This document shows, one piece after another, positions 18,457 through 27,899 of a stretch of DNA of 64,000 bases; positions within the stretch are counted from its first letter, which is position 1; each line of letters begins with the position of its first letter. The stretch lies in assembly GCA_022652545.1 (NCBI GenBank), contig JALCRM010000005.1, positions 1 through 64,000 of the forward strand, read 5' to 3'. The DNA is from Lachnospiraceae bacterium. GTDB taxonomy: Bacteria > Bacillota > Clostridia > Lachnospirales > Lachnospiraceae. The notes beneath the pieces are model-generated. The model saw nothing but the letters and a program-made list of their open reading frames with translations, ran no database searches and had not been told where the DNA came from. The position numbers were made by a program, and so were the translations under genes.

Positions 18457-21285
18457 CTACTTTTTCGCCGTCGTGCAGACAGCTTTGTACAGGGTCTTAT
18501 AGAGCAGATCCGGGTCTATCGGTTTTGAAATATGCGCATTCATACCCGCATCGAAAAATCTCTTTGTGTCCTCTGAAAATGCATCGGCTGTCATTGCGAT
18601 AATGGGTACCTTCTGTGCATCGGGCCGTCCGAGTGAACGGATCGCCTTCGTCGCTTCGCAGCCGTCCATCACCGGCATACGGATGTCCATCAGCACAGCG
18701 TCGTAATAATATATCGCGGAACGCCTAAAGTGCCCGACGCCGGTCTCTCCGTTCTCGGCAATATCGACGAGCATTCCCTTTTCCTCGAGAAGCGTCCTGG
18801 CGATCTCCTGATTCAGGGGATGGTCTTCACAAAGCAGAATGTGTTTTCCCTGCAGCATCTGCAGAGCGTCTCCGGGATCTTCAGCCGGCAACTTACGTCC
18901 GGCATTTTCCGCTTCGATGTACCCGCATTCAACTATAAAAACAAACTCTGTGCCTTCTCCGAGCCTGCTCTTGACGGATATGGTTCCTCCCATCGCATCA
19001 ATGATCTTTTTCACGATTGCCAGGCCCAGACCCGTGCCGTGCATTTCGGTGCTTCCGCTGCGATGTTCCTGTGAAAACGGATCAAACACAACCTTCTGAA
19101 ACTCTTCACTCATACCGATTCCGTTGTCGCGGATCGAGCCCGTGATGCGCATCTTATCCCCCGGTATCAGGCATTCACAGACACTGACCCTGATCTCACC
19201 GCCCTCCGGTGTGAACTTTACCGCATTGGAAAGCAGATTGAAGTAAATCTGGTTGGTGCGCAGAATATCCAACTTCGGAACCACATTGCCGAGGGGCTGG
19301 GCCTCCAAAACAAGCTTCTGATTTTTGCCGTCGCACAGCGGTCTGATCACGGCGTCGATGTAGCTTCTGAAATCATCCACATAATAGGGTTCCGGATGAA
19401 GTTCCATCTTTCCGCTCTCGGCCTTCGCCATATCCAGGATCTCATTGACAAGACCGAGAAGAAATTTGGAAGAGGTATCTATTTTGTCCAGGCAGTCTGT
19501 CGTTGCCGGCGGATTCTCCTGCCTGCGTGCGATATATGTCATTCCGATGATGCCGTTCAGCGGCGTGCGGATATCGTGGCTCATGCGGGACAGAAAATCC
19601 GTCTTGGCCTGGTTTGCAGCCTCGGCTTCCGCCTTGGCTTCTGCCAGCACCAGATTTCTGCGCTTACGGACCCCGGCTGAAAACATAAATACAGCCATGA
19701 GACACAGCAGAATGCTGAAGGTACAGACTGCGGCCGTTGTCTGCAGCGGGTACCGGCGCATCAGGACGGCCGGGGAAAGCGCCTCCTGCTGCACGGAGTT
19801 CTGGCTCAGGATACTCTGCACTTCTCCCGAGGAAAGCTTCTCCAGGGATTTGGACAGGATCCCCAGAAGATTCGGATCAGACTCTCTGGTAACTCCCAGC
19901 GCTATGCTCTGTGTGATTGCTTCGACCGGCTGATAGCTGAAATTTCCGAAAGCACTCATGGTGCGGTAGTAATTGGCCTGATAGTAATTCAGAAAAGTAC
20001 AGTCCGCGGCGCCGCGGCTGACCGCATCCATACATTCTTCAAAAGTAAGGCATTCGACCGGCGTCAGTTTCGGATATTTTTTTCTGATCTCGTTTTCCAG
20101 ATACCCGCCCGCGGCCACTGCAACCGTTCGGGGCATCACATCCGGACTCTTCGTGACCCTCATGACGGAGCCGTTCACATATGGCTGCGTCACAAGCAGG
20201 TCGTGGCTGTTTGCCCAAAGGTAATCGTAGCTCACAGCCATTACGGTATCCGTGGATCCTTCGCTCATCTCATCGTAGATCGCCTTTGTTGATGTGGACA
20301 AAACAAAGCGGAAGGTGATCCCGGTATCCCTCCCGATGGCACGCAGAATGTCCGGCGTGATGCCGGCGGCCACTCCGTCCTGATCCATTTCAAAGGGCGC
20401 CCAGTTCTCCTCATACGGTACGACCACGACCGGTTTCGTCTGCAGAAAAGCGAGTTCCTGCTGCGTAAAGCTTTCGCTCTGGGCGGTACTGCCCTCGAAG
20501 GATTTGCGGTAAAGATCCGTATTGAAGCTGGGATTGTAACTGAAAAGACGCGACATAGCGCTGTCAAGTTCCGTTTTGAGATCCGGATTTTTTTTGCTTG
20601 TAACGATATAGACCGGCGAAGGATCACATTTTGCAAGCACCACATGTCCGGAAGGAATGTCGATATAATTTGTCTGGATCAGTGCGTCGATTTGGCCGGC
20701 GTCCAGAGCGGTATACAGTTTCGAAGTGCTCTCATATGCTTCCGCCTGGAAAGAAAAGCCCATTGCCTTTGCATAATCGCGCAGGGAATCTACGATCGTA
20801 CTGCCGTCTTCATAACCGACCGTCATGCCATCGAAGGCAGCATAGTCGTCATAGCTCAGATCCGTGTCGCTGTTTGCCACAAGGCAGCACATCTCCGTGC
20901 CCATGGATTCATTGGAATAATCAAAATACTGCAGGCGATCCTCCGTCCTGCTGACATCAAGCAGGACATCGATCTCTCCGGATTTTGCCATGCGCAGACA
21001 GTCAGACCAGGACGCTTCCACATACTCATAATCCCAGTTTGCATATTCCGCGACAGCCTGCAGATATTCCTTCTGGAAAGTAACGGTCGCATCCCCGCCG
21101 TCGGATAAGGCTGCCATATCGGTATCCGGCAGGCCGACACGGACTGCCCTGCGCGCGGCAGCTTTCCCGGCGGCTTCTGCCGGCAGCGCTGTAAGCGTGA
21201 AAAGGCAGACTGCGGCAATAAGTCCTGCCGTCAGTCCGCAAAGTGCCTTTCGGTACATAACGGATATTCCGCCGTTCCTTTTCAT
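18457..21285 (-). CDS. Hybrid sensor histidine kinase with tandem SBP_bac_3 sensor domains
   Basis: This 942-residue protein resembles BvgS/EvgS-type kinases. A signal peptide ends near residue 39 (LPAEAAG). Two amino-acid-binding-protein (SBP_bac_3) domains span about 46-265 and 284-495, so ligand is sensed outside. A membrane segment lies at about 515-535. The HisKA dimerisation domain has H570 in SRMSHDIRTPLNG. The HATPase has NAVKFTPEGGE, RDNGIGMSEEF and GTGLGLAIVKK. A receiver domain (815-935) has the likely phosphoacceptor D867 in DAVLMDIRMP. There is no C-terminal HPt or DNA-binding domain, so phosphate must pass to another protein. It begins 27 bp after the broken CheB/CheR hybrid kinase gene, in the same operon. 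Confidence 0.9.
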   Translation of the reverse strand: MKRNGGISVMYRKALCGLTAGLIAAVCLFTLTALPAEAAGKAAARRAVRVGLPDTDMAALSDGGDATVTFQKEYLQAVAEYANWDYEYVEASWSDCLRMAKSGEIDVLLDVSRTEDRLQYFDYSNESMGTEMCCLVANSDTDLSYDDYAAFDGMTVGYEDGSTIVDSLRDYAKAMGFSFQAEAYESTSKLYTALDAGQIDALIQTNYIDIPSGHVVLAKCDPSPVYIVTSKKNPDLKTELDSAMSRLFSYNPSFNTDLYRKSFEGSTAQSESFTQQELAFLQTKPVVVVPYEENWAPFEMDQDGVAAGITPDILRAIGRDTGITFRFVLSTSTKAIYDEMSEGSTDTVMAVSYDYLWANSHDLLVTQPYVNGSVMRVTKSPDVMPRTVAVAAGGYLENEIRKKYPKLTPVECLTFEECMDAVSRGAADCTFLNYYQANYYRTMSAFGNFSYQPVEAITQSIALGVTRESDPNLLGILSKSLEKLSSGEVQSILSQNSVQQEALSPAVLMRRYPLQTTAAVCTFSILLCLMAVFMFSAGVRKRRNLVLAEAKAEAEAANQAKTDFLSRMSHDIRTPLNGIIGMTYIARRQENPPATTDCLDKIDTSSKFLLGLVNEILDMAKAESGKMELHPEPYYVDDFRSYIDAVIRPLCDGKNQKLVLEAQPLGNVVPKLDILRTNQIYFNLLSNAVKFTPEGGEIRVSVCECLIPGDKMRITGSIRDNGIGMSEEFQKVVFDPFSQEHRSGSTEMHGTGLGLAIVKKIIDAMGGTISVKSRLGEGTEFVFIVECGYIEAENAGRKLPAEDPGDALQMLQGKHILLCEDHPLNQEIARTLLEEKGMLVDIAENGETGVGHFRRSAIYYYDAVLMDIRMPVMDGCEATKAIRSLGRPDAQKVPIIAMTADAFSEDTKRFFDAGMNAHISKPIDPDLLYKTLYKAVCTTAKK

Positions 21286-21312: not shown

Positions 21313-21966
21313 TTACTGTCCCGCTTTCGGTTCCTCTTTCAGATATTTTGAAAGAACGTCCCTCAGGAGGATCATGTCCACGGGTTTATACACAAAGTCG
21401 GTAGCTCCTGCCTGGAGCAGATCCGTGCGGTCTTCCGCGAAAACATCGGCCGTCATGATAATGATCGGGATCGTCTGTGCATCAGGCCGCTTTTGTGCGC
21501 GTATTGAAAGTGTGGCCTCCCGCCCGTCCACTACCGGCATGCGGAGATCCATCAGGACAGCACTGTAATATCCCTGCTTTGAATTTCTGAACTTTTCGAT
21601 CCCTTCCCGTCCGTTTGCACAGATCTCTCCCTGCATTCCGAAATGTTCCAGCATGCTTTCGGCAATTTCCGCATTGATCGCCTGGTCTTCACAGATCAGT
21701 ACGCGTTTGCCGGTCAGGATCTTCAAGGCTGTCTTTTCAGATTCATTTTCAGTCGGTATTTCTCCCGTACATACATCATAATCCAGCGATACGGTAAACG
21801 TTGTTCCCTGTCCTTTTGTGCTGGCGCAGCTGATCCTGCCGTCCATTGCGTCAACAAGATACTTGACGATATACAGACCAAGGCCCTGCCCGAGTGAACG
21901 GCTGCGGCTGAATTCCGATTCCTGTTCAAAAGGAGCAAACATCTTCTTCTGGAATTCCTCGCTCAT
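21313..21966 (-). CDS. Detached C-terminal part of the CheB/CheR hybrid kinase: ATPase end plus receiver
   Basis: This 217-residue open frame starts at MSEEFQKKMFAPF, a phrase that in intact kinases lies in the middle of the HATPase domain just after the D-N-G-I-G-M box. It carries GQGLGLYIVKYLVDAMDG (G2 box) and then a full receiver domain with phosphoacceptor in SAVLMDLRMPVVDG. It lacks the kinase N-box and half of the ATP pocket, so it cannot be a kinase by itself, though the receiver could fold if the frame were translated. The apparent ATG is the internal Met of the ancestral gene, and no Shine-Dalgarno is evident. It is best read as the 3' half of the frameshifted gene at 21313-25012. 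Confidence 0.7.
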   Translation of the reverse strand: MSEEFQKKMFAPFEQESEFSRSRSLGQGLGLYIVKYLVDAMDGRISCASTKGQGTTFTVSLDYDVCTGEIPTENESEKTALKILTGKRVLICEDQAINAEIAESMLEHFGMQGEICANGREGIEKFRNSKQGYYSAVLMDLRMPVVDGREATLSIRAQKRPDAQTIPIIIMTADVFAEDRTDLLQAGATDFVYKPVDMILLRDVLSKYLKEEPKAGQ

Positions 21967-21994
21967 GCCGATCCCGTTGTCCGCTATGGTGTAT

Positions 21995-24900
21995 TCATGC
22001 CTTACTTTTCCGTTCTTCAGCTTTCTGCACGAAACGATAAAGTCGACTTTCCCCCCCCTCAGGCGTATATTTGATCGAATTTCCTATAAGGTTCACAAGA
22101 ATGCGGGATACATGGTCTGCATCCATCATCAGGGAGCGTTTCGGAAGCTTGGGGATCGACGTGGTCAGTGTGATCGCCCGCTGCTCCGCATCTGCAAGGA
22201 CAAGCGGTACAATGCCTTCCAGAAAGCTCTCTTCGTTTGTAGGAATTGCGCGTATTGCCATGTGCCCTGCGCTGATCCGGCTGGTCTCAAGGATATCGTT
22301 GAAAATTCCCAGCAGATAATTCACGTTGGTCTTGATCGTGCTGATCTGCTCATGGAAATTCTCGGACTCCTCCGAAGTTTCCATCAGCTGGGCTGTCCCG
22401 AGGATCGCATTGAGCGGTGTCCGCACGTCATGGCTGATCCGGGAAAGGAAACTGTCTTTTTCATGGTTTTCCCTCTGCTGCTGTTCAAGCTCCGCGCGTA
22501 TGTGATCGGTCGACTTGTCATTCTTTATCTGCTCACTCATATCCACGAAGGTAAGGACCAGCCCCACGATCTTTTTTTCATTTGTCCGGTAGGGGGCGAC
22601 ACGCATAAAATATCGTTTGCCGCCGACTGAAATAACCTCGTTCTCTTCGGGAAGAAGCTGCGCGGCTACACGTCTGCAGACTTCCACAAGCTCGATATTG
22701 ACAAAATTATAGGCAATGAAACGGATGGGACGGCCGATATCCTGTTCCTGTACGGAAAACTCCTTGGATACATATTCCGTATAGCGCCGGATCTGGAGCT
22801 TGTCATCCAGGAAAATGATGCCGACCATCGTGGAGGCAAGGAAATTGGAAATATCGTTGTTCAGGGAAGTCACTTCTCCGAGCTTCTCCTGATATTCCGC
22901 ATTTACGGTGTAGAGTTCCTCGTTCACCGACTGCAGTTCCTCGTTGGAACTTTGCAGCTCTTCGTTGGCCGTCAGCAGTTCTTCATTGGTCGCCTGCAGT
23001 TCCTCGTTGACGGTCTCCAGTTCGCTGACTGTCTTTTTAAGATTTACCTGGGACTGCGCCAGATCGTTTTCCAGATCGCTGATGCGCCTTGAAGCGGCTT
23101 CGTTGACTTCATAGACTTCGCCGCCTTCCGGTTCCGCCTGCCTGCCATTTTCGAGAAACAGGACTGCAAAATAGGACGTGTTGCCGTAGTCGTGCCCGCT
23201 GACCGGGGACACGACGATGGAGATGCTGGTGCGGTCCACCATGCCGCGGACCGGGACATCCTTGTAGGTGACGCGGCGGTTCTCATCGCGCGCCGTTTTC
23301 AGGGCAGTGGAAACCGCAATACGCAGATCATCCGCCAGCATCAGGAAAATATTGAGTTCGCCCTTGCCGGCCGGCACATGAAGATAGTTGTTGCAGTCGC
23401 CGAAAACATGCCGGATCAGATTCTGTTCATCGATCAGCAGACACGGCGGCATGAATTTTTCCAGGACCTCCAGGCGAAGCACTTCTGCGCTGTCTTCTTC
23501 CTGGGCGGACGACTCGGCATGAGGCTGCGGAGCAACAAAGTCGCCGTCGATCGGCGGCACATGGTACCGGATGTTCATATCCTTGGGCGCATGCCCGGAA
23601 GCATTGTGGATAAAGATCTTCTCGTTCTGACAAAGCGGCGTGTAAATGTCTCCGCAGCCGCTGATGGCTTCGCTCCGTCCGAGGAACAGATAACCTCCGT
23701 CGTTCAGCGCAAGATGGAAAATTGCGAACAGATCCTTCTGGAGATTGTTCTGGAAATAGATCATCATATTGCGGCAGGAAATGAGGTCCAGTTTTCCGAA
23801 AGGCGGATCCTGAAAAACATTCTGCGGCGCAAACACGACCATTCTGCGCAGATCTCTCGATACGATATAACTGTTGTTCTTCTTGGTAAAGAAACGTGCC
23901 AGCCTCTGCGCGCTGACATCCTCAATGATATTCTCCCCATATTGCCCCTTGCCGGCGGCAATAACAGCTTCCTTGTCGAGATCCGTGGCAAAGATCTTGA
24001 CGGGCGGATGCATGTCCAGTTCCTCTTCCGCTTCCGAAAACAGCATGGCAATGGAGTAGGCTTCCTCTCCCGTGGAACAGCCGGCGACCCAGACGCGGAT
24101 CGCGGGCCCGCTTTCATTCTTCTGGATCAGGGCTTTGACGACGCGTTCCTTGAGCGCTTCAAAGCATTCCGCGTCACGGAAAAAGTTTGTGACGCCGATC
24201 AGGACATCCTTGGCCAGAATGGCCGCTTCATCGTTGTTTGACAGCAGGAAATTTACGTAGTCGTAGAGATTTTCAATGTGATTGACGACCATGCGGCGTT
24301 CGATCCGGCGCGTCACCGTGGTCTGTTTATAGTATGTATAGTTGACGTTGGATACCCGTTTGAGGATAGAGTAAATTTTATTGAGCAGTTCTTCATTCGT
24401 CATGCCGGACGGTTCCGAAGACATGCTTTCCGCAATGTGCGTCAGTTCTTTTGCGATATCGGCGGGTGAAAGGACCATGTCCGCAAAGCCTGTCTGCAGT
24501 GCAGAACGGGGCATGCCGTCGAATTTGGCCGTTTCCGGGCGCTGTACCAGGATCACGCCGCCCTGCTCTTTGACCGCGCGGATACCGTTTGATCCGTCTG
24601 AGCCGGTCCCGGAAAGGACGACCGCCACAGCGTGCGATTCATATTCCTTGGCAAGCGACCGGAAAAAGATATCGATCGGATGATTGATCACGCGGGTGTG
24701 CACATAGGCATGCAGAATCAGTTTCCCCTTTTTCACTTCCATGTTGAATTTAGGAGGGATCAGGTAAACCGTATTGCGTTCAAGCGTCTGCCCGTTTTCC
24801 GCCTGCATGACCGGCATCATGGTGTACTCGCAGAGGATCTCCGAAAGCATGCTTTTGTAGTCAGGGGAAAGATGCTGGATAATGACGAAAGCCATTCCGG

Positions 24901-25012
24901 TATTGTCCGGCAGTTTACCCAGCAATTCCTGGATCGCTTCCAGGCCACCTGCGGAGGCACCGATCCCGACTACACAAAAAGGAGATTCTCCTTTTGACAT
25001 GCGCTCTTCCAT
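21995..25012 (-). CDS. CheB methylesterase-CheR methyltransferase-PAS-histidine kinase, truncated
   Basis: This 1,005-residue open frame contains several complete domains. A CheB-type methylesterase (about 11-195) has the triad S20 (GIGASAGG), H47 (IIQHLSP) and D139 (GTGSDG). A CheR methyltransferase (about 205-470) has SAM motif VWVAGCSTGEEAYSI. A long coiled coil repeats N-E-E-L units (645-715), followed by a PAS domain (720-830) and HisKA with H861 (SRISHDVRTPLN). The HATPase starts with NLIGNSIKYTPEGG but shifts frame after residue 987 and ends 18 residues later. I chose the ATG at 25012, preceded by AGGGGG. Similar CheBR hybrids regulate non-chemotaxis pathways; the targets here are unknown. 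Confidence 0.88.
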   Translation of the reverse strand: MEERMSKGESPFCVVGIGASAGGLEAIQELLGKLPDNTGMAFVIIQHLSPDYKSMLSEILCEYTMMPVMQAENGQTLERNTVYLIPPKFNMEVKKGKLILHAYVHTRVINHPIDIFFRSLAKEYESHAVAVVLSGTGSDGSNGIRAVKEQGGVILVQRPETAKFDGMPRSALQTGFADMVLSPADIAKELTHIAESMSSEPSGMTNEELLNKIYSILKRVSNVNYTYYKQTTVTRRIERRMVVNHIENLYDYVNFLLSNNDEAAILAKDVLIGVTNFFRDAECFEALKERVVKALIQKNESGPAIRVWVAGCSTGEEAYSIAMLFSEAEEELDMHPPVKIFATDLDKEAVIAAGKGQYGENIIEDVSAQRLARFFTKKNNSYIVSRDLRRMVVFAPQNVFQDPPFGKLDLISCRNMMIYFQNNLQKDLFAIFHLALNDGGYLFLGRSEAISGCGDIYTPLCQNEKIFIHNASGHAPKDMNIRYHVPPIDGDFVAPQPHAESSAQEEDSAEVLRLEVLEKFMPPCLLIDEQNLIRHVFGDCNNYLHVPAGKGELNIFLMLADDLRIAVSTALKTARDENRRVTYKDVPVRGMVDRTSISIVVSPVSGHDYGNTSYFAVLFLENGRQAEPEGGEVYEVNEAASRRISDLENDLAQSQVNLKKTVSELETVNEELQATNEELLTANEELQSSNEELQSVNEELYTVNAEYQEKLGEVTSLNNDISNFLASTMVGIIFLDDKLQIRRYTEYVSKEFSVQEQDIGRPIRFIAYNFVNIELVEVCRRVAAQLLPEENEVISVGGKRYFMRVAPYRTNEKKIVGLVLTFVDMSEQIKNDKSTDHIRAELEQQQRENHEKDSFLSRISHDVRTPLNAILGTAQLMETSEESENFHEQISTIKTNVNYLLGIFNDILETSRISAGHMAIRAIPTNEESFLEGIVPLVLADAEQRAITLTTSIPKLPKRSLMMDADHVSRILVNLIGNSIKYTPEGGESRLYRFVQKAEERKSKA

Positions 25013-25151
25013 TGTATTACCCCCTGATGCCATAAACCATTTTATTTATATTTATTTTTAGACGGGTGCGGATATGAATTTATAATTCGGCATTGTACAG
25101 AAAATGCGATCATTGCACCGGATCCTTTTAAGACAGCGATATTATAATTTC

Positions 25152-25256: not shown

Positions 25257-27899
25257 TCAGGCTTTCTTCTCGGCTGCATGAGAGGCCCTGATGGCCGCCT
25301 GCGCCGCTGCCAGTCTTGCGATCGGCACGCGGAAAGGCGAACAGGAAACATAGGTAAGACCCACGCGGTGGCAGAAATCGATCGATGCCGGATCTCCGCC
25401 GTGTTCTCCGCAAATGCCGAGTTTGATATCCGGGCGTACCTTGCGTGCTTTTTCGGCTGCCATCTCGATCAGCTGTCCTACGCCGTTCTGGTCAAGGTGT
25501 GCAAACGGATCCTGCTCGTAGATCTTGCTCTTGTAGTAATCCTGCAGGAACTTGCCGGCGTCGTCGCGGGAGAAACCGAAGGTCATCTGTGTCAGATCGT
25601 TGGTGCCGAATGAGAAGAACTCGGCTTCTTCGGCGATCTGGTCTGCCATCAGGGCAGCTCTCGGGATCTCGATCATCGTACCTACATGATAGCGGATATC
25701 GGAGTTTTTCTCTTTCTTGACCTCTTCCGCCGTATCCACGATGACCTTCTTGACAAAGGAAAGTTCCTTCTTGTCGCCGACGAGCGGGACCATGATCTCA
25801 GGCTCGATCGCATAGCTTCTTTCCTTGTTCACTTCGATGGCGGCTTCAATGACAGCTCTGGTCTGCATCTTGGCGATCTCGGGATAAGTGACGGAAAGGC
25901 GGCAGCCCCTGTGTCCCATCATGGGATTGAACTCCCTCAGGGCGTTGCAGCGTGCTTTGACTTCTGCCACGGAAAGATTCATATCTCTGGCAAGACCCTC
26001 GATCTCATCCTCTTCGGTGGGCACGAATTCATGAAGCGGCGGATCCAGGAAACGTATCGTCACCGGGCGCCCTTCCATAACTTCGTACAGGCCCTTGAAA
26101 TCGCCCTTCTGGAACGGGATCAGTTCATCCAGCGCCGCCTGTCTTTCCTCGGTGGTGTCGGAAAGGATCATCTTGCGGATCTTCGGAATACGGTCGGGCG
26201 CAAAGAACATGTGCTCCGTGCGGCAAAGGCCGATGCCTTCCGCTCCCAGGCGCACCGCGTTCGCGGCATCGTCCGGCGTATCTGCATTGGTACGGACCTT
26301 CAGTGTACGAAAACTGTCAGCCCATTTCATCATGCGTTCAAAGTTGCCCGAAATAACAGCTTCCACGGTCGGGATATCGCCGAGGTAGATCTTGCCGGTG
26401 GAGCCGTCCAGGGAAATATAGTCGCCTTCCCTGACCGTAGCATTGCCAAGCGTGAAGCAGTGCTTCTCTTCGTCCACTTCCATATCGCCGCAGCCGGAAA
26501 CGCAGCAGGTGCCCATGCCGCGCGCCACGACAGCCGCGTGGGACGTCATTCCTCCGCGCATGGTCAGCACGCCTTCCGCTGCGTGCATGCCTTCAATGTC
26601 TTCGGGCGAAGTCTCCTGGCGCACCAGTACGACTCTCTGGCCGGCTGAATGTGCCGCGATCGCATCGTCGGCGTTGAAATAAACGCGGCCGGCCGCTGCT
26701 CCCGGAGATGCGGGCAGTGCCTGCCCGATCACTCTGCCGTTCTTGAGAGCTGTCTGGTCAAAATTCGGATGCAGCAGCTGATCGAGCGACTGTGCCTCGA
26801 TGCGCATGACTGCTTCTTCGGGTGTGATCATCTTCTCATCCACGAGATCGCAGGCGATCTGGATGGCGGCCTGCGCCGTCCTCTTGCCGCTGCGGGTCTG
26901 CAGGAAATACAGCTTGCCGTTCTCGATGGTGAACTCCATATCCTGCATGTCGCGGTAATGATCTTCAAGTTTTCTTGCGCTGTCCATGAACTGGCGGTAC
27001 ACATCGGGCATCGCGTCCTGCAGTGTGGTGATGGTCAGCGGTGTACGAATGCCGGCCACGACATCTTCGCCCTGCGCATTGATCAGATACTCACCGTATA
27101 TGCCCTTGGCGCCTGTGGAAGGATTCCGTGTAAACGCCACGCCGGTGCCGGAGGTGTTGCCCATGTTGCCGAACACCATGGCCTGTACGTTGACGGCAGT
27201 GCCCCATTCGTAGGGAATGTCATACATCCTTCTGTACGCATTGGCACGCGGGTTGTCCCAGGAACGGAACACAGCCTGGATGGCTTCCATCAGCTGAACC
27301 TTTACATCCTGCGGGAAGTCGGTGCCCATTTTTTCCCTGTAGATCGCCTTGAAGCTGGAAATGACCGTCTTCAGATCGTCAGCCGTCAGCTCGTAATCAT
27401 ACACATATCCCTTCTTCTTGCGCGTATCCTCCAGGATACTGTCAAAGAAGGTCTTGCTCATCCCCATGACGACGTCAGAGAACATCTGGATGAAGCGGCG
27501 GTAGGAATCATAGGCAAAACGGGCATTGCCGGTACTCTGTGCAAAGCCTTCCACGGAAACATCGTTCAGGCCCAGGTTCAGGATCGTATCCATCATACCC
27601 GGCATGGAAGCGCGGGCTCCGGAACGCACTGACACAAGCAGCGGGTTCTGCGTATCGCCGAATTTCTTGCCCTGCTTTTCCTCCAGCCATGCGAGCGCTT
27701 CAAAGATCTGCCTCTGCGTATCCTCATTGATGGTCTTGTTCTCGTTGTAATAGTCTGTGCAGGCTTCCGTCGAGATCGTGAACCCGTTGGGGATCGGGAG
27801 ACCGATGTTGGTCATCTCGGCGAGTCCGGCACCTTTGCCGCCCAGAAGGTTGCGCATACCTGCATTGCCCTCTTCGAACCGGTATACCCTTTTGCTCAT
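25257..27899 (-). CDS. ppdK: Pyruvate, phosphate dikinase
   Basis: The enzyme interconverts pyruvate, ATP and phosphate with PEP, AMP and pyrophosphate. In anaerobic clostridia it replaces or supplements pyruvate kinase. The 880-residue product has the nucleotide-binding domain at the N-terminus (GGKGAGLAEMTNIGLPIPNG). The swivelling domain carries the phosphohistidine in GGMTSHAAVVARGMG. The PEP-binding TIM barrel has GLCRTEHMF and the catalytic Cys in GICGEHGGDP near the C-terminus. Length is standard. The ATG at 27899 follows AAAGGG. It is monocistronic with a strong terminator; no regulatory kinase/phosphorylase (DUF299) gene is adjacent. Confidence 0.98.
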   Translation of the reverse strand: MSKRVYRFEEGNAGMRNLLGGKGAGLAEMTNIGLPIPNGFTISTEACTDYYNENKTINEDTQRQIFEALAWLEEKQGKKFGDTQNPLLVSVRSGARASMPGMMDTILNLGLNDVSVEGFAQSTGNARFAYDSYRRFIQMFSDVVMGMSKTFFDSILEDTRKKKGYVYDYELTADDLKTVISSFKAIYREKMGTDFPQDVKVQLMEAIQAVFRSWDNPRANAYRRMYDIPYEWGTAVNVQAMVFGNMGNTSGTGVAFTRNPSTGAKGIYGEYLINAQGEDVVAGIRTPLTITTLQDAMPDVYRQFMDSARKLEDHYRDMQDMEFTIENGKLYFLQTRSGKRTAQAAIQIACDLVDEKMITPEEAVMRIEAQSLDQLLHPNFDQTALKNGRVIGQALPASPGAAAGRVYFNADDAIAAHSAGQRVVLVRQETSPEDIEGMHAAEGVLTMRGGMTSHAAVVARGMGTCCVSGCGDMEVDEEKHCFTLGNATVREGDYISLDGSTGKIYLGDIPTVEAVISGNFERMMKWADSFRTLKVRTNADTPDDAANAVRLGAEGIGLCRTEHMFFAPDRIPKIRKMILSDTTEERQAALDELIPFQKGDFKGLYEVMEGRPVTIRFLDPPLHEFVPTEEDEIEGLARDMNLSVAEVKARCNALREFNPMMGHRGCRLSVTYPEIAKMQTRAVIEAAIEVNKERSYAIEPEIMVPLVGDKKELSFVKKVIVDTAEEVKKEKNSDIRYHVGTMIEIPRAALMADQIAEEAEFFSFGTNDLTQMTFGFSRDDAGKFLQDYYKSKIYEQDPFAHLDQNGVGQLIEMAAEKARKVRPDIKLGICGEHGGDPASIDFCHRVGLTYVSCSPFRVPIARLAAAQAAIRASHAAEKKA

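Follow-up and report, generated by a model that had tools for sequence, protein, structure and literature searches.

A hybrid histidine kinase gene that changes reading frame at a run of eight Gs in a Lachnospiraceae genome: recent slip, consensus error or phase switch?

Introduction

Does a run of eight Gs that divides a CheB/CheR hybrid histidine kinase gene inside its ATPase domain switch the kinase on and off, as an initial annotation of this locus had proposed, or is it a fixed mutation or a homopolymer error, the two alternatives named there? Here, we addressed this question in the window, a stretch of 64,000 nucleotides (C5:1-64000) of a genome of 2.67 Mb that is assembled in 27 contigs and is 81% complete, with a G+C content of 54-57% in the sampled contigs. 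A search of the literature on phase variation, Lachnospiraceae and homopolymers, judged by title and the opening of the abstract, revealed no evident report of such a switch.

Results

One frame change separates two intact halves of a hybrid kinase gene

The hybrid kinase gene is located on the minus strand and spans 25033 to 21313. Base-level reading of the window placed the run (C8 on the plus strand, G8 on the minus strand) at exactly 22051-22058, and the reading frame of the gene changes there, at the Gly-Gly following the kinase N-box (KYTPEGG). We take this place to be the Thr-x-x-Gly-Gly motif of such kinases. The upstream frame (21995..25033, minus strand) encodes 1012 amino acids and ends with YTPEGG, 18 further residues and a stop. 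According to Pfam, with coordinates converted from residues, it carries a CheB methylesterase domain (CheB_methylest, residues 22-197, 24443..24970), CheR_N and CheR methyltransferase domains (residues 218-266 and 281-460, 23654..24382), a PAS_10 domain (residues 729-832, 22538..22849) and a HisKA phospho-acceptor domain (residues 859-923, 22265..22459), all on the minus strand, and these are followed by the beginning of the ATPase domain. The downstream frame (21313..22056, minus strand; 247 amino acids and a stop) is offset by one base. It runs without a stop for 247 codons from the G8 run to 21313 and contains IADNGIG, MSEEFQKK and GQGLGLYIV. Pfam recognized in it the part of HATPase_c after the break (profile positions 30-109 of 111, 21778..22038) and a Response_reg receiver domain (21355..21702), again on the minus strand with converted coordinates; its first ATG-started ORF is 21313-21966 (minus strand, 217 amino acids). 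The initial annotation had described the same run, stop and one-base offset, CheB/CheR on the upstream side, and two intact halves with no second lesion, and all of this is borne out. On the 3' side, a second hybrid kinase gene on the same strand (18457-21285, minus strand) encodes SBP_bac_3, HisKA, HATPase_c and Response_reg domains, and its SBP_bac_3 sensor domains are presumably of the sensor type found in BvgS. A PEP-utilising, PPDK-like gene (25257-27899) is the 5' neighbour.

Homologues are open across the site and the downstream half has not decayed

We searched 62 genomes of the genus, including the window's own, and 30 of them gave a match at E ≤ 1e-150. The 31 homologues examined comprised one from the closest named relative (L001), a paralogue from the window's own genome and 29 from other genomes of the genus; two of the 31 are cut off by a contig end short of the site. 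The remaining 29 are CheB-CheR-PAS-kinase-receiver proteins whose open frames measure 1,159-1,365 codons, and every one of them is in frame across the site. The longest run at their homologous site is four Gs; conservation of the tract among related species, a supporting rather than essential feature of contingency genes, was thus absent from all 29. The paralogue (C7:112633-115614) is intact, with 66% identity and a frame of 1246 codons. The closest named relative is the MAG Lachnospiraceae bacterium isolate UW_DM_LCO1_1 (genome G078), 74% identical over the best segment in one scan, which may omit records very near the window's genome. L001 has its own, different frameshift near residue 86 in the CheB part (about 6180-6222 of L001), where 170 inspected bases contained no homopolymer of five or more.

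Base-shuffled versions of the downstream half had 12.7 stops on average, compared with zero stops in its 247 codons, so an open frame of this length with the missing domains is not chance. Using the paralogue as outgroup, the window and L001 had 19 v 19 unique residue changes in the downstream half; with three other outgroups, the counts were 11 v 19, 17 v 22 and 19 v 17. Identity between the window and L001 is 59% downstream of the break and 73% upstream, and the non-synonymous difference between L001 and the paralogue rises downstream in the same way, which makes the lower identity a property of the domain. The lack of stops and the numbers of unique changes similar to those of L001 indicate that both halves are under constraint, as expected equally for a recent slip and for an error. 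A decayed pseudogene was rejected: neither further lesions nor relaxed constraint were found beyond the break, and the degenerated gene that the initial annotation had considered as evidence against a switch was not seen. Given the open frames of relatives and the undecayed downstream half, the break is therefore recent, reversible or an error.

Long G runs are scarce in the genome and seven Gs recur at the Gly-Gly motif

In a 543-kb sample of the window's own genome, 19.0 runs of exactly eight G or C are expected under independent bases, and we observed a single run of eight and a single run of nine. Long G/C runs are thus avoided in this genome, and a G8 is unsurprising from base composition alone. 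The whole 2.67 Mb contains 11 G runs with a length of at least seven, and just four of these reach eight or more, namely a G12, a G9 in a permease gene, a G8 in an oxidoreductase gene and the G8 of the kinase gene. One of the three coding runs, the G8 at C4:156424-156431 inside a pyridine-nucleotide oxidoreductase gene, is in frame, and the other two (kinase G8 and permease G9) are out of frame. At the G9 (C2:57687-57695; 2188-2196 of L036), the frame of a BPD_transp_1 permease terminates; a piece of 50 codons continues in another frame, followed by a second permease gene and then a GH95-type glycosidase gene. A sugar permease gene looks split here. We read the 50-residue piece, which had no Pfam match, as the end of the permease. 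A search of the other 61 genomes of the genus returned no homologue of this permease at E ≤ 1e-60. A second split gene, at the G9, would be expected if long G runs were unstable or miscounted. The G12 (C1:255671-255682; 2172-2183 of L035) apparently lies between divergent MFS and solute-binding-protein genes. Among the seven runs of exactly seven Gs, three fall within long, uninterrupted frames, and by our reading the other four are near gene starts or ends.

Long G runs were also read by eye, unscored, at 20 sites with at least eight Gs that were hand-picked from six relatives among the matches listed. Judged by eye rather than by Pfam, a substrate-binding protein gene looks split at a G9 (2038-2046 of L125), a transposase gene looks split at a G/C run of eight (2073-2080 of L137), and a long G run in L141 is apparently in frame. 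The remaining sites are ambiguous, close to the end of a gene or next to N gaps.

We further searched the family, in 397 genomes taken from a larger group, for the Thr-x-x-Gly-Gly motif written with seven Gs. Eight genomes matched with at least seven: the window's, five with other kinases (assigned by motifs rather than Pfam) and two with loci that are non-kinase by their frames. All five other kinases have exactly G7 at the motif and are in frame; among the six kinases, the window's G8 is the one out of frame. At this motif, codon choice thus repeatedly produces G7, and the window's run is longer by a single G. Codon use predicts 20.8 occurrences of GGGGGG for Gly-Gly in 286 long frames of the own-genome sample, but just 4 were seen.

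Shorter homopolymers of this assembly stay in frame

Homopolymers of 5-7 bases in the 543-kb sample were assessed by a codon-usage frame test, for which the G8 itself falls below the scoring thresholds. The frame was kept at 157 of the 158 scored runs, and the lone exception looks like a gene junction. A frameshift scan against G078, the genome of L001, covered approximately 20,550 codons of the sample and yielded two candidates, the kinase break and one due to the frameshift of L001 itself; with the latter set aside, the kinase break is the sole candidate left. In the comparison genome, seven candidate frameshifts were found in approximately 23,930 covered codons, none of them at a G/C run, and at least one (contig 4, 41632) stems from an antisense query frame. 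Frameshifts at many homopolymers, which would mark a long-read artefact, were therefore not seen among the scored runs. A generally noisy assembly as the main account was rejected on the same counts. Searches for 16S and 23S rRNA found none in the window's genome; of 14 control genomes, 5 and 4 were likewise without a hit, which makes the absence a weak sign of a short-read bin. In one relative (G041), N gaps lie beside the G run at three of seven sampled tract loci (L127, L128 and L131).

Discussion

The account we favour is a recent copying slip that is present in real DNA, at a motif rich in Gs by nature; we put its chance at about even. The ancestral gene would have specified a protein of the usual CheB-CheR-PAS-histidine kinase-receiver type, roughly 1,240-1,260 residues long, for whose conserved Glu-Gly-Gly after the N-box this lineage came to use GAG GGG GGG, seven Gs in a row. 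The sequenced strain or population may then have gained one G by replication slippage. Translation would now stop within the ATPase domain; the cell could still make CheB, CheR, PAS and the phospho-acceptor helix, while the ATP-binding boxes past the N-box and the receiver would be lost. Such a kinase should be dead, with no autophosphorylation expected, and the 217-residue ATG-started ORF at 21313-21966 could yield a receiver fragment if translated. The change would be recent and could in principle slip back, and there is no sign of selection for it as a switch. We favour the slip because all spanning homologues are open with at most four Gs at the site, because the downstream codons have no stop and their unique changes are close in number to those of L001, because the family kinases with G7 are in frame and the G8 is not, and because nearly all scored shorter homopolymers of the same assembly keep frame. 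Against it, an error in the consensus would give an identical picture, miscounting would also leave two of three coding runs of at least eight Gs out of frame, and open frames for MutS (893 codons) and MutL (700 codons) in this genome should keep slippage rare.

A miscounted run in the consensus, with an in-frame run in the genome itself, is the rival that survives best, although we consider it rather unlikely. It would account for a downstream half without decay and for a second long G run, the permease G9, that is likewise out of frame. The N gaps beside G runs in G041 suggest that such runs may trouble assemblies, or the Ns may be of other origin. However, the assembly keeps frame at its scored homopolymers, shows no other break in the covered codons and has an in-frame G8 in the oxidoreductase gene. 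The lack of rRNA genes, which would fit a short-read bin, also speaks against this error, weakly, as several control genomes lack hits as well.

The phase switch of the initial annotation requires that the run slips often enough to toggle the kinase and receiver in the population, under selection. Its anatomy is that of a simple-sequence phase-variable gene, a G8 within a gene that parts two frames, each half intact. The closest precedent is Bordetella pertussis bvgS, a sensor kinase gene that is truncated when a G/C run changes by one base; its poly-C phase variation alternates between C6 and C7, and both lengths occur in strains and in a mixed culture (PMC1891110). Two lengths were seen there, whereas the window has one consensus only, and its protein has CheB, CheR and PAS domains. 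Campylobacter jejuni poly-G genes likewise have runs of seven or more Gs inside reading frames; a switching frequency of 0.004 is quoted for a G8 tract of this species, and in NCTC11168 the runs of 29 loci reach seven or more (PMC4965091), compared with the 11 such runs in the 2.67 Mb here. In the window's own genome, the permease G9 and the G12 apparently between divergent transporter genes add to this side. Nevertheless, the same-genus homologues, with the same domain series, have no long G run at the site, the five other kinases with G7 are all in frame, and the genome holds an intact paralogue, only four runs of at least eight Gs and fewer GGGGGG for Gly-Gly than predicted. The open MutS and MutL frames also speak against a switch and are a further difference, since C. 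jejuni, to our knowledge, lacks both proteins. The phase-switch reading gets no positive support, and we regard it as unlikely; the two alternatives of the initial annotation, a fixed mutation and a homopolymer error, are together likelier than a selected switch. Still somewhat more doubtful is a broader version, in which a switch acting on the kinase and receiver half alone would be one of a few G-run switches in this genome, together with the permease G9 and the G12, and the Gly-Gly motif would be a recurring slippage hotspot.

Recoding, whereby slippage of the ribosome or RNA polymerase at the G8 makes some full-length protein, is highly improbable: RNA polymerase could slip on a G8 and both halves are kept, but a +1 (or -2) shift is needed, not the -1 shift that is the common kind of frameshift in recoding, and the frame is unsplit here in all 29 spanning homologues.

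If the hotspot reading were true, histidine kinases would lose catalysis at this motif yet keep their upstream domains. Coexistence of the two run lengths in the population would extend sensor-kinase phase variation of the bvgS type to a Lachnospiraceae-type bacterium. Otherwise, the gene illustrates that GGG GGG codons for Gly-Gly can mimic a switch and that, where one assembly shows a frameshift at a long G run, reads are required to call a switch.
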